NCBI GenBank assembly: GCA_008933615.1
Contig: WBUR01000018.1
Location: 1-64,000 of the forward strand
Origin: a bacterium
GTDB lineage: Bacteria; CLD3; SB21
DNA: 64,000 bases
Direction: 5' to 3'
Below are positions 5,039-35,888 of this stretch, piece after piece. Position 1 is the stretch's first letter; each line of letters starts with the position of its first letter. A program made the translations under genes and the position numbers. The notes below the pieces were generated by a model. The model ran no database searches, was not told the DNA's origin, and saw only the letters and a program-made list of their open reading frames with translations.

Positions 5039-6220
5039 TTAATATTTCTCAGCGATAGCAATCGCAACATTATTCTTTTCGATTATATAATCCGAACCCG
5101 GATTAATGTTAACGGCCAGGCGTTCCTCTTCGGCAAATTTTTTGCCGGATTCTTGGAGTTTTTTTCGGATGAATTGATCGAGATACGAGTTATCATCAGA
5201 AAGCAAATCATTCAGCGCCATGCCTTTGGATTCTCTGGTGACTCCGATGAGGATGGCGCGTTTTTTTTCACTGAAATATGAGCACAGTTGGCCAAAAGTT
5301 TTACCAATGAATTCATCCGGAATGTCCATGCGCACAATTTCGTTTCCATAAGAGAAAGTCAGCAGTTCATCAACCACGCGAGGGACGCCAGGGCCCGTCA
5401 CATGCATGGCGAGCAGGAAACCGCTATATTTGTCACTGATAACAACGTCGTCGGCCTTAGCTCGCCGTAAATGGGACACGTTATCAGGATTGATAATATG
5501 AGCGTACAAACGCACTTTCGGATTCATGTTTTTTACGGTCAATGATGTGATGATAGTTTTCTCATCGGTTTTATTGACGCTGATTTCATTAATGTCTGCT
5601 ACGATAATCACGGATTCCGCCTGCCGGATACACGCCTTTTCTAAGATCGCGTCTTTTGAAAAATCTCCTGCAACGAAGCTGATCTCAGATTCAGTGTGTC
5701 GTGAGATTATTTCGCTTACCGGTCCAGGATCGCTGGAATTGACTAAAACGATGGATGGATAGTCCAATTCTTTTTCGAGTGTCAAAATGATATTCTCTAT
5801 ATTGAAATTCCATCCGCAGATCACAATGTGTCCTTTGAGTTTTACTTTTTCCAATCCTTGGCCCTTTCTAAGTCTTTGTTCAACAAATTTTGAAGAAATC
5901 GTAGCGGTCAGTACGGCAATAATGGATATTCCAAACAGACCGATGAAAGTGGCTGTAACCCGGCCCGCCGTGGTAACAGGGAAAAAATCACCATATCCTA
6001 TAGTAAAAACAGTAATGAAAGCCCACCATATGCCGACTCCCCAATCCTGAATAATGTTACCCGCAGTTTTTGACGGATCTGTTTCCAAAATAAAAATGAT
6101 AAATCCGCCGATATGGACGCAGAATAATAATGCAATAAAAATCTGGAACAACGTATTCTCTTTAAGAGCGAGTAACCTGCGTTTGAGGCGTTTTTTAAAA
6201 TGTAGTTTCTTGGCCCTCAT
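5039..6220 (-). CDS. Two-helix potassium channel with cytoplasmic RCK (TrkA-N) domain
   Basis: A basic N-terminus leads into two membrane helices around a pore loop with the K+ selectivity filter TIGYGD (residues 73-78 from the chosen start). An RCK/TrkA-N Rossmann domain starts near LKGHIVICGW, and a TrkA-C-like end follows. This is the MthK/Kch architecture: a K+ channel gated by a cytoplasmic ligand. An ATG at 6262 in the same frame would add 14 residues (MAAATRR...) and overlap the upstream antiporter gene by 34 bp. I prefer the ATG at 6220, which leaves an 8-bp gap. Neither has a clear ribosome-binding site. The gene is second in the ion-homeostasis cluster. Confidence 0.87.
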   Translation of the reverse strand: MRAKKLHFKKRLKRRLLALKENTLFQIFIALLFCVHIGGFIIFILETDPSKTAGNIIQDWGVGIWWAFITVFTIGYGDFFPVTTAGRVTATFIGLFGISIIAVLTATISSKFVEQRLRKGQGLEKVKLKGHIVICGWNFNIENIILTLEKELDYPSIVLVNSSDPGPVSEIISRHTESEISFVAGDFSKDAILEKACIRQAESVIIVADINEISVNKTDEKTIITSLTVKNMNPKVRLYAHIINPDNVSHLRRAKADDVVISDKYSGFLLAMHVTGPGVPRVVDELLTFSYGNEIVRMDIPDEFIGKTFGQLCSYFSEKKRAILIGVTRESKGMALNDLLSDDNSYLDQFIRKKLQESGKKFAEEERLAVNINPGSDYIIEKNNVAIAIAEKY

Positions 6221-31051: not shown

Positions 31052-32437
31052 ATGAGCGATAATATTTTTCAAGGCTACCGTGGACACGCATTAGAAGTAC
31101 TGAAAAAATACACCGCGCGAGTTTGGGCGGCCGTGGATGTCGAAACGACGCGCGGACTCTTTCAGGGAACTATATTGCCGCGCGCGGAAAACACGGACGA
31201 TGAACATATCGTTTTGAAGATCAGCACCGGATATAATATCGGCCTGGACGTCAATACGATCACCGATATACATGAAACCGGATTTAAAAAAGCCAATTAC
31301 CAGATTCCTGAAAAACAGTTTCCGAATACCAAAGGACTGCCGCACGTCAAATTATTCGGAACGGGCGGCACGATCGCCTCGCGTCTCGATTACAGGACGG
31401 GCGCAGTTATTCCGGCGTTTTCTCCGGGAGAACTGTACGGCGCGGTGCCTGAGTTGGCTGATATTTGCAATGTAGATACCGAGAAAATATTTGCCGTGTT
31501 CAGCGAGAATATGGGACCGAAGCAATATATCGCGCTTGCTCACGCCATCGTCAAAGAGATCAGAAGCGGCATTGACGGCATAGTGGTCGGCCATGGCACC
31601 GATACCTTGCAGCACACCGCCGCGGTGCTGACGTATATGGTGCAAAATTCTCCCGTGCCCATCATCATGGTCGGTTCCCAGCGATCGTCCGACCGTCCGA
31701 GTTCCGACGCCGCGCTGAATCTGATGCATGCGATGTTTACAGCCGGCACGTCGGACATTGCCGAAGTAATGGTGTGTATGTTCGGCCCGACGTCCGACGA
31801 GTACGGACTGCTTCACCGCGGAACGCGCGTCAGAAAAATGCATTCGTCCTATCGCTCCACATTCAGAACCATCGGCGACACGCCCGTGGCAATGGTTACC
31901 AGAAAAAAAATCACGCACATCAAAAAGGAATACAATCATCGCAGAAAAGACAAGAACGTGGATCTTTTTCCATTCTTCAGCGAAAAAGCGACGATGCTGT
32001 ATTATTATCCGGGGATGAAACCAGATGTGATGTTCGCGATGATCGATGCGGGTTATAAAGGCATTATCATCGTCGGAACGGGCCTGGGGCATGTGAATAA
32101 GGAACTGTATCCGGCGATAGTCAAAGCAAAAGAAGAAGGCGTTTCGGTATTCATGGTGGTGCAGACGATCTGGGGTTATGTGCACATGTTTGTGTACGAT
32201 ACCGGGCGCGACATGATGGCCAAAGGCGTCGTGCCGCTGGGCAATATGTTACCTGAGACAGCGTACATCAAACTCGGCTGGGTGCTCGGGCAGGCCGAAG
32301 ATCCCGTCGAAGTGAAAAAGATGATGCTCACGCCGATCTGTTCAGATATCACTGAACGCGAACCGTACAACGGTTATCTCGTCCTGCAGGGCGGCGTGCC
32401 GGAGGTAGAAGAGTTTGTGAGGAAGGTGCATAAGTAG
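31052..32437 (+). CDS. GatD-like asparaginase-family protein (archaeal-type Glu-tRNA amidotransferase subunit D)
   Basis: A 461-residue protein with the GatD architecture. A small N-terminal beta domain (about 20-90, RVWAAVDVETTRGLFQGTIL) is followed by an L-asparaginase fold. Catalytic threonine motifs are TGGTIAS (Thr107) and HGTDT (181-185); VGSQRSSDRPSSDAALNL and a C-terminal asparaginase domain follow. In Archaea GatD works with GatE to make Gln-tRNA(Gln); the asparaginase part supplies ammonia. No GatE gene is in the window, and most bacteria use GatCAB. It may therefore be a stand-alone amidohydrolase derived from GatD. The length and both catalytic motifs are intact. Confidence 0.82.
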   Translation: MSDNIFQGYRGHALEVLKKYTARVWAAVDVETTRGLFQGTILPRAENTDDEHIVLKISTGYNIGLDVNTITDIHETGFKKANYQIPEKQFPNTKGLPHVKLFGTGGTIASRLDYRTGAVIPAFSPGELYGAVPELADICNVDTEKIFAVFSENMGPKQYIALAHAIVKEIRSGIDGIVVGHGTDTLQHTAAVLTYMVQNSPVPIIMVGSQRSSDRPSSDAALNLMHAMFTAGTSDIAEVMVCMFGPTSDEYGLLHRGTRVRKMHSSYRSTFRTIGDTPVAMVTRKKITHIKKEYNHRRKDKNVDLFPFFSEKATMLYYYPGMKPDVMFAMIDAGYKGIIIVGTGLGHVNKELYPAIVKAKEEGVSVFMVVQTIWGYVHMFVYDTGRDMMAKGVVPLGNMLPETAYIKLGWVLGQAEDPVEVKKMMLTPICSDITEREPYNGYLVLQGGVPEVEEFVRKVHK

Positions 32438-33900: not shown

Positions 33901-33987
33901 CGATTCAAACCGCCCCCACTTGGAATATTTCTCAAAACTTCAATAGTTCGACCCCCGCCTTGCCAAGGCGGGGGAGAAAAGGGGGCG

Positions 33988-34119
33988 GTTGCCCACGAAT
34001 CCCTTGACAAATCTCTGTCGGGTGTGTACATTGTGAGCGTCTCATCGTGGTTCTTTTTCATCGTGGAGACTTCAATCATGATCAATTCAGAAACCGAAAT
34101 TTTGTTTGAACGAAATTGC
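33988..34119 (+). repeat. Promoter-bearing direct repeat, copy B
   Basis: The second copy of the segment at 32538-32671. It lies downstream of the TPR gene and upstream of the cassette-like gene. It has a better promoter than copy A (TTGACA-17-TACATT) and ends in the same CGAAATTGC word. Confidence 0.55.
34004..34032 (+). promoter_or_regulatory. Candidate sigma-70 promoter reading into the cassette
   Basis: TTGACA, 17 bases, TACATT. Transcription would start near 34040 and run through the 34111-34157 hairpin into the gene at 34209. It could supply expression of an inserted cassette in the way an integron Pc promoter does. Confidence 0.5.
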
Positions 34120-34157
34120 GTATATATCCCATTTTTACAGCGATACACGCAATTTCG
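34111..34157. repeat. 15-bp inverted repeat upstream of the cassette
   Basis: CGAAATTGCGTATAT and ATACACGCAATTTCG pair with one mismatch around a 17-base loop. The hairpin lies directly before the core-like site GTTATAC at 34169-34175. It may be part of the original insertion target. Confidence 0.6.
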
Positions 34158-34169
34158 GTAATGTATAAG

Positions 34170-35335
34170 TTATACGCTATGTGCCTCTCAATCCTAACAT
34201 CTTAGTGCATGACCGATTTTGTATACAAGGATGGACTATATCGTCCGACGATAAAAACGATTTACATCTTCCTAGATGATGGAGGCCAACGAGAAGCTGA
34301 CTATTATGGTTTCACTACCTTGCTGATCGACGAATTTTCTTTTCAATCACTTGAATCACAGGTTTTTTCCCTTTGCAAACAGTTCAATATCACAGAACTC
34401 CATGCCATGAAATTACATCAGGAAGGACAATTAATTGATGATATGAACACATACGATACATTCTACACTACTATTTTGGATTCCCTCGCTAGTGTTCTGG
34501 AAAAAGCCAATTACTGTTATCTACGATCCATTTTAGCTTCTAAGAAGATAATTGATAAGGTAAACAAATTTCATTTTGATACTCTCAAGGATAGCAGTGT
34601 TATAATGCGTGGGAAACCACTCCCAACAGAGATTTTGAAATTATATCAATATGTTGCATTTCCAGTAGATCAGAGTTTACACAAAATAGACTGTGACAGC
34701 ACTGTTAGCATTAACTTGCAAGTTGATAGAAAAGACGAACTCGATTCAACAATACTGAACAAGAAGACATATTTATCTGGCCATCATGTATCGAATTTTT
34801 ACAATGCGGCAGAATTAATTCCTCGGTTATTAAATATCCTTATCGAACTTGGCTTAAAAAAACAATGCAAAATATCCAACTTTTCAATTGTATCGGACAA
34901 AGTTTCTCCTGGAATTGGAGTGGTTGATGCCATAGCAAATTTTGGGTTTAATTTTGCAAAGTGTGCAATCAAACCTGTACCGTCGCAAACTGAACAAAGA
35001 AAATCTGATTTATTCACTCACTTTTTGAATCGAATAAGTTGGTCTACCGACCAAGTAACTACCGTAAAATCGTCAATCAGAAATTCAATTACATTTGAGA
35101 ATGGAAGTTTCCATTATTTGACTGACACGCCCATTTCGGTTTTCGAGATGAAACATTAAGCGAGGCACACAGCGTATAACATGCGGCTTCCACGAGCCGC
35201 TTCGCGACGCCTTTTGATTTGACGATAGAGAGATTGTGGGCGTTGCTTCGCCAGTAGCTCGCTCACGTATTGAGTATGTTCTTAATTAACTATAATTTTC
35301 CTTGCGTGCGAGCTACTGCGTGTAGCCGCTCAGCG
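34170..35335 (+). mobile_element. Solitary integron-cassette-like unit
   Basis: One gene in forward orientation is bounded by a core-like site G|TTATAC at 34169 and a second G|TTATCT at 35335, which closes an attC-like structure. The first 20 bases after the left junction (GTTATACGCT...) are the inverted complement of 35161-35180 (...AGCGTATAAC), 18 of 20 matching. This is the relation expected between the start of a cassette and the left arm of its attC. No integrase gene lies in the window. Confidence 0.55.
34209..35159 (+). CDS. Cassette-borne protein, possibly DUF3800-like
   Basis: A 316-residue soluble protein with no clear family. The start, IYIFLDDGGQREADYYGFTT, resembles the YIDESG-type N-terminus of DUF3800 proteins (RNase-H-like fold). 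Other parts, such as ELHAMKLHQEG and FSIVSDKVSPGIGVVDAIAN, fit an alpha/beta fold with acidic residues near strands. The base composition is clearly more AT-rich than the neighbours, and the gene lies inside a cassette-like unit. Both facts suggest horizontal gain. DUF3800 genes are often found in defence or mobile contexts, but the present match is weak and function remains unknown. The ATG at 34209 has no strong ribosome site. Confidence 0.65.
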   Translation: MTDFVYKDGLYRPTIKTIYIFLDDGGQREADYYGFTTLLIDEFSFQSLESQVFSLCKQFNITELHAMKLHQEGQLIDDMNTYDTFYTTILDSLASVLEKANYCYLRSILASKKIIDKVNKFHFDTLKDSSVIMRGKPLPTEILKLYQYVAFPVDQSLHKIDCDSTVSINLQVDRKDELDSTILNKKTYLSGHHVSNFYNAAELIPRLLNILIELGLKKQCKISNFSIVSDKVSPGIGVVDAIANFGFNFAKCAIKPVPSQTEQRKSDLFTHFLNRISWSTDQVTTVKSSIRNSITFENGSFHYLTDTPISVFEMKH

Positions 35336-35341
35336 TTATCT
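35174..35341 (+). repeat. attC-like recombination site
   Basis: The left arm GTATAAC plus TGCGGCT faces the right arm AGCCGCT plus GCGTTATC. The ends pair as an R''-L''/L'-R' bulged hairpin. An inner stem pairs AGTAGCTCGC(TC)ACG (35253-35267) with CGTGCGAGCTACT (35305-35317). The 168-bp length is at the long end of known attC sites. The right core has T instead of a purine at one RRR position, so it is not a perfect consensus. Confidence 0.55.
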
Positions 35342-35441
35342 TTGCAGAAAACGACAATTAAAAATATACGTGGAGCAGCGACCACTCCAAAAACGGGCGA
35401 CACCGAAAAGCCAAACGAGTAGGACGAATTGAGGAATGAGT

Positions 35442-35888
35442 ATGACCAACAGCGTAACCTTGCATAGGGTTCTTAAAGTAACTCCTGAAAAAGTATACCG
35501 GGCTTTTACGGATGCTAATGCCATGTCGTTTTGGATCCCGCCTTATGGATTTTTATGCGTGGTGCATCAGATGGATGTGCGTGTGGGCGGCAGTTATAAA
35601 ATGTCCTTTATTAATTTTTCAACCGGAAACGGACATTCTTTTGGAGGAACGTTTTTGGAAATAAAACCGAATGAATTCATAAAACATACCGATAAATTTG
35701 ACGACCCGAACCTGCCCGGTGAAATGATCACGTCGATTTCGCTCACGAAAGTTTCCTGCGGCACCGAATTAAAAATCGTTCAAGAGGGCATTCCTTCGGT
35801 CATCCCGGCAGAGATGTGTTATCTCGGCTGGCAAGAGTCGTTAGAAAAATTAGCAAAGTTAGTTGAACCGGAAATTCCGGATGCTTAA
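35442..35888 (+). CDS. SRPBCC (AHSA1-like) protein
   Basis: A 148-residue protein of the START/SRPBCC superfamily, AHSA1 branch. VTLHRVLKVTPEKVYRAFTD followed by MSFWIPPYGF, then VGGSYKMSFINFSTG and a C-terminal helix (CYLGWQESLEKLAKLVEPE), match the family order. These proteins have a hydrophobic pocket and often bind lipids or drugs; Hsp90 stimulation holds only for the eukaryotic branch. The ATG at 35442 is preferred over the one at 35436 because TGAGGA ends six bases before it. The gene follows the attC-like site directly and could once have been a second cassette, but no attC follows it. Confidence 0.85.
   Translation: MTNSVTLHRVLKVTPEKVYRAFTDANAMSFWIPPYGFLCVVHQMDVRVGGSYKMSFINFSTGNGHSFGGTFLEIKPNEFIKHTDKFDDPNLPGEMITSISLTKVSCGTELKIVQEGIPSVIPAEMCYLGWQESLEKLAKLVEPEIPDA

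Follow-up and report, generated by a model that had tools for sequence, protein, structure and literature searches.

A gene cassette between conserved flanks

The stretch of DNA analysed here (the window) comprises 64,000 nucleotides of contig WBUR01000018.1. It belongs to the MAG designated G000, in which this contig is numbered C18; C-numbers denote contigs throughout. The locus contains the following features:

31052..32437, plus strand: GatD/asparaginase-like gene in the conserved neighbourhood on the left (family assigned by reading the sequence); its ortholog precedes the same leader and cassette on C118 of the congeneric genome G001
34004..34032, plus strand: Pc-like promoter in the leader, TTGACA-17-TACATT, a consensus match
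34078..34161, plus strand: leader ORF of 27 aa, MINSETEILFERNCVYIPFLQRYTQFR, downstream of the promoter and running through the attI-like repeat
34114..34169, plus strand: attI-like site (attI-2), composed of AATTGCG, 27 bases, CGCAATT, 14 bases and the crossover G|TT
34170..35335, plus strand: gene cassette of 1166 bp, bounded by the two crossovers
34209..35159, plus strand: cassette ORF of 316 aa, with weak DUF3800 likeness at residues 16-94
35174..35341, plus strand: attC site with R'' at 35174-35180 (GTATAAC) and R' at 35335-35341 (GTTATCT)
35365..35429, plus strand: DUF805 RNA (RF03081) in the conserved right flank, directly upstream of the AHSA1-domain gene
35436..35888, plus strand: AHSA1-domain gene, the first gene of the conserved right flank

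The unit boundaries, the ORF and the attC-like site with an R''-to-R' span of 168 bp, which had been proposed in a sequence-only reading of the window, were confirmed by direct inspection, the left crossover being read as G|TTATAC after position 34169. The same reading had noted that the start of the cassette and the left arm of the attC are complementary in 18 of 20 bases. This value was reproduced and is specific to the register, as neighbouring registers yielded 2-11 complementary bases; moreover, the start hexamer of the cassette is complementary to its own R'' at all six positions. The site displays the complementary R''/R' and L''/L' boxes and the G|TT crossover that characterize an attC. 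Its folding energy alone is uninformative (z -0.8), and the attC was accepted as real on account of its repeat family and the cassette geometry. The gene is AT-rich, as described before, with a GC content of 36% in the 1-kb bin 34001-35000 against about 45% around it. Judged by repeat family and geometry, the segment 34170-35335 is a genuine integron gene cassette with a true attC. The locus contains this one attC only, and none of the neighbouring ORFs between 28000 and 42000 is a recombinase gene.

For the 316-aa cassette protein, a weak DUF3800-like start had been suggested. This likeness was recovered for residues 16-94 when the protein was aligned to 13 DUF3800 proteins with hhalign (P 1e-4, probability 58%), but no match to the Pfam family DUF3800 (PF12686) over the gathering score was obtained. 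The protein may at most represent a distant DUF3800 relative. AlphaFold prediction from the single sequence resulted in a pLDDT of 36 and was disregarded. Among plasmids, phages and named genomes, the search for homologs yielded nothing but this same cassette in a single sister MAG (JAEUSJ010000206.1), the sequence of which matches that of C118 in G001.

The locus is conserved in three genomes with varying cassettes

In G001, the same cassette is located on C118 behind the same 175-bp leader and downstream of the same GatD-like gene. The two copies of the cassette gene differ by one base, at position 34903, whereas the attC sites of G000 and G001 differ by about 6% (35187-35247), and C118 ends inside the attC. 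Possible reasons for a diverged attC behind a near-identical gene are attC conversion, attC exchange or an error at the end of the G001 contig. Relatives that carry the gene without any attC-like sequence would have spoken against the sequence-only reading; in G001, the gene is accompanied by its attC. In the second congeneric genome, G002, the leader on C263 is 78% identical and located behind the same M48-like peptidase gene, but the cassette next to it carries another gene (379 aa) and a decayed attC.

The right flank, beginning at about 35333-35340, is conserved chromosome (93% in C92 of G001 and 86% in C185 of G002). On C92, a different gene (160 aa) and the GCGTTATC sequence, which could be a decayed cassette, lie ahead of this flank. 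The DUF805 RNA was considered as a part of the cassette system and rejected, since it sits in the right flank that is kept in G001 and G002. A second copy of this RNA (RF03081) is located on C35 at about 5141-5210.

The attC belongs to a large family with cassette arrays elsewhere in the genome

The sequence-only reading had described a solitary cassette without integrase and had suggested searching the genome for intI and further attC copies. The cassette is indeed alone at its locus with no integrase adjoining, but G000 harbours about 50 relatives of its attC, most of them 75-94% identical, as well as a recombinase on C71, which, as described below, lacks the I2 segment of IntI. The right-end motif of the window attC is present in 44 exact copies in G000, all of them on contigs with arrays or stray cassettes. 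The sites of the family are mostly found on contigs of 3.5-6.6 kb (C68, C72, C73, C76, C77, C79, C80, C81 and C84). These short contigs are read as fragments of arrays, because repeats break the assemblies of cassette arrays, and they carry no flanks. The median length of the 40 complete cassettes on array contigs is 725 bp.

The alignment of 32 attC copies, with the boxes assigned by eye by the analyst, revealed R'', L'', L' and R' boxes together with short spacers that remain unpaired and a single additional base in the L'' arm. Among the 44 pairable cassettes, 43 begin with a hexamer that is exactly complementary to their own R''; after shuffling, this count averaged 9.9 and did not exceed 20. 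Such agreement is expected if each cassette was once circular with one attC. The same attC is present in many copies in G001 and G002. In addition, stray attC sites without an attI-like repeat were observed outside the array in G000, which are candidates for off-target insertions or relics:

C31:50895-51900
C33:17577-17686
C62:1130-1238

A putative promoter and an attI-like site precede the cassette

The sequence-only reading had placed a consensus-like promoter ahead of the gene. The promoter at 34004-34032 proved to be a consensus match; however, it belongs to the flank and lies outside the cassette. Both hexamers are also found in the leaders of C118 in G001 and C263 in G002. Between the promoter and the cassette we observed the inverted repeat designated attI-2. 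A matching layout, AATTGCG-27-CGCAATT-14-G|TTA, is located between an integrase gene and the first cassette on C71 of G000, C146 of G001 and C186 of G002. Without mismatches, the pattern occurs in G000 only at the window and at C71:123-181 (attI-1), and elsewhere on C118 and C146 of G001 and C186 of G002, although its rarity is no independent test, as the pattern was derived from these same sites. The second attI-like site of G002, on C263, has a spacer of 13 instead of 14 bases; owing to this difference of one base, the ungapped comparison of the C263 and C186 sites shows no similarity.

The attI-1 and attI-2 sites are identical at 34 of 58 positions (59%), against a shuffled mean of 14.5 and with none of 200000 shuffles reaching 34; the best placement of the C71 site in the window is at 34169, and unrelated places score up to 30. 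The left flank of the window cassette is assigned to the attI-like sites by homology only. Going by these layouts, all three members of the genus possess two attI-like sites per genome, one beside the integrase and one at the window locus without an integrase. The leader ORF may be comparable to ORF11 of attI1; its reading frame is not maintained in G002. The window further contains a REP-like dispersed repeat (33907-33992), which also occurs at several places in G001 and G002.

The integrase beside attI-1 lacks the IntI-specific segment

The tyrosine recombinase gene on C71 (433-1323, minus strand) is located directly upstream of attI-1 and the start of the cassettes and runs in the same direction as these. 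The integrase likewise lies upstream of the attI in the direction of the cassettes in all three congeners. A direct link between attI-1 and the main array is seen only in the first cassettes of each contig. The protein contains the tyrosine recombinase domain PF00589 (E 1e-40). The E-values obtained with the integron integrase model TIGR02249 were set aside, since control genomes also respond through their Xer proteins; the model positions left unmatched and the distance between the catalytic boxes served as criteria instead. The C71 integrase matches TIGR02249 in two pieces, with model positions of about 179-240 missing, and scores 220.9 bits against a cut-off of 265. Correspondingly, residues 180-252 of VchIntIA (2a3v) remain unmatched, whereas the alignment with XerA (5hxy) contains no large gap. 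The distance between box I and box II amounts to 91-92 aa in six integrases of the C71 family as compared to 132-134 aa in 16 canonical IntIs including IntI1, and to 99 aa in the XerC/D-type protein of G000 itself. Separately from the C71 gene, G000 has an XerC/D-type gene on C28. According to these alignments, the C71 integrase lacks about 42 residues, which are the IntI-specific segment containing helix I2. Helix I2 has been reported to be unique to IntI, to be necessary for cassette capture and to be the innovation that created integron integrases (PMC7790495).

A canonical IntI over the cut-off was detected in none of nine genomes of the class, seven of which are of good quality, whereas the same search detected one in 53 of 386 sampled genomes. 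After removal of the insert columns, tree calculation placed the canonical IntIs and the I2-less recombinases on opposite sides of a split with 100/100 support. A single clade of canonical IntIs and the integrases of the C71 family was rejected by the AU test (p 0.013), while the union of all attC-linked integrases was not clearly rejected (p 0.057). As the test is only partly decisive, an independent origin of the I2-less integrases is not proven. A long recombinase on C33 was considered as well and discarded, as no attI-like repeat matching the pattern is found behind the gene.

The same arrangement is found in other genomes

In a genome of the same family, G006, contig C351 carries an I2-less integrase followed by an attI-like repeat and a cassette whose attC is clear, although different, while contigs C41 of G004 and C80 of G003 end just past the attI-like sequence. 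Outside the class, an I2-less integrase with an attI-like repeat and two or more attC-bearing cassettes is present on C55 of G094 and in the one-contig genome G268. The genes on these cassettes include PIN-domain and HicB/HicA-like genes, as named from reading the sequence. An automatic finder of cassette units returned two units each in G268 and G094, and 0-3 in controls, so that in these two cases sequence reading carries as much weight as the number of units. Canonical IntIs are present elsewhere in G094, but not in G268. C27 of G335 and C163 of G052 stop at or just after the attI.

The I2-less recombinases of G014, G215 and G093 were rejected as members of this group, because what looks to be an IS91-type transposase gene lies behind them and no attC is present. 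At loci L171, L174 and L176, in three unrelated genomes, related I2-less tyrosine recombinases are followed by an apparent IS91-type transposase gene.

A probable second attI platform loaded in trans

Considering the cassette geometry, the attC family, the paired attI-like sites, the conserved locus with its varying cassettes, the order of integrase, attI and cassettes and the absence of the IntI segment, all of which are read from sequence, we regard it as probable that the window locus is a second, integrase-less attI platform, into which an I2-less integron integrase of the Xer type inserts cassettes in trans. The C71 integrase would excise cassettes as circles and, acting in trans, would connect attI-2 and the folded attC at G|TT; integrases of the C71 type would also integrate cassettes via their attC at attI-1. 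The cassette gene at attI-2 would be transcribed from the promoter at 34004-34032. We infer the recombination by the C71 integrase, its action in trans at attI-2 and the transcription of the cassette from the arrangement of these elements. In addition, we lean towards the broader notion of a second kind of integron, in which I2-less Xer-type recombinases, apart from IntI on the tree and occurring in several bacterial lineages, would capture genuine attC cassettes at an attI of their own, would shuffle them and, in this genus, would also serve a second, promoter-bearing attI without integrase.

The single cassette and the lack of an adjacent integrase would also be consistent with a chance insertion at a secondary site that is not an attI and forms no functional platform, and the stray cassettes on C31, C33 and C62, which lack an attI-like repeat, suggest that off-target insertion occurs in G000. 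However, an attI-like left flank is found in this genome only here and beside the integrase, and three genomes have retained flank and promoter, G002 with a different cassette, which renders such an insertion improbable. Somewhat less remote, although still unlikely, is a relic of a split or deleted integron from which rearrangement removed the integrase and almost all cassettes, leaving a site that is out of use. The decayed attC at the G002 site and the possible decayed cassette on C92 of G001, represented by the 160-aa gene and the GCGTTATC sequence, would be in line with this scenario. In contrast, the attI repeat and both promoter hexamers are retained in all three genomes, and the cassettes of G000 and G001 are intact and nearly identical with well-formed ends, suggesting a recent insertion.

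Alternatively, a canonical IntI that has been lost or is missing from the MAGs might move the arrays, with the I2-less recombinase being a bystander. The genomes being MAGs and thus incomplete, a canonical intI could reside in an unbinned contig, and the reported need for I2 in cassette capture (PMC7790495) speaks for such an enzyme. Yet, besides the lack of a canonical IntI over the cut-off in the nine genomes of the class, there is none in the one-contig genome G268, where two cassettes follow an I2-less integrase, and the I2-less integrase is located directly upstream of the attI in several genera; we therefore give this alternative only a minor chance. An assembly artefact that skipped an array between the window cassette and the right flank would be compatible with the break of C118 inside the attC of the same cassette, behind which an array could follow, and with the array contigs of G000 being devoid of flanks. 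The window attC is unique, though, and the longest exact run that it shares with the other contigs compared is 48 bp, which would not suffice for a join at the final k-mer sizes commonly used. A collapse at the C18 join is thus hardly to be expected, and the left junction of attI-2 and cassette stands either way.

Relation to known systems

The putative trans-loaded platform and its arrays resemble sedentary chromosomal integrons in that the cassettes of G000 measure about 0.5-1.3 kb and have one attC each, with a G|TT crossover, R''/L''/L'/R' boxes and the extra base in L'', and in that an attI lies upstream of the first cassette with a promoter, predicted in our case, reading into the array. 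Unlike in sedentary chromosomal integrons, the integrase is devoid of the I2 segment and runs in cassette direction, and there is a second attI without an integrase. The C71 integrase aligns with canonical IntIs (IntI1, VchIntIA; TIGR02249) over the N-terminal domain and both catalytic halves, the C-terminal region included, but lacks about 42 residues between boxes I and II, scores below the TIGR02249 cut-off and takes a separate position on the tree. In its length, the spacing of its catalytic boxes and the absence of large gaps it is similar to XerA/XerC-like recombinases (NF040815; 5hxy, 4a8e), with the difference that its gene is located beside an attI and attC cassettes and is not a housekeeping gene.

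The sequence-only reading had interpreted the locus as a CALIN- or SALIN-type trapping of a cassette outside an integron. The integrase is indeed not adjacent to the window cassette, as in these elements. In contrast to them, the locus comprises a single attC as well as a promoter and an attI-like site at the point of insertion, conserved in three genomes and occupied by a different cassette in G002, which speaks against this interpretation. With one attC, where at least two are needed, and an attI present, it does not fall into the CALIN class.

In the literature, the attI is placed immediately beside intI, and genome searches identify IntI through its specific domain (PMC9668308). We found no earlier report of I2-less integron integrases or of a second attI without integrase in the open-access PMC literature. 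The NCBI model NF040815 is already named 'site-specific tyrosine recombinase/integron integrase'; the kinship of such recombinases to integron integrases has already been noted, but not the arrangement. If our reading is correct, software that depends on the IntI-specific domain would report such arrays as lacking an integrase, and I2-less integrases could account for part of the large and taxonomically broad CALIN class. Moreover, the requirement of I2 for the recombination of folded attC sites would become directly testable with natural enzymes, and a promoter-bearing attI without an integrase would suggest that a dedicated expression site can receive cassettes in trans.

ORF-less cassettes in the arrays

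The oriented array contigs of G000 contain a family of cassettes of 550-610 bp without a long ORF (C68:3363, C72:170, C76:3079, C80:18, C84:1561 and C84:2159), the bodies of which are 79-90% identical. These multi-copy cassettes are possibly promoter-carrying or spacer cassettes.
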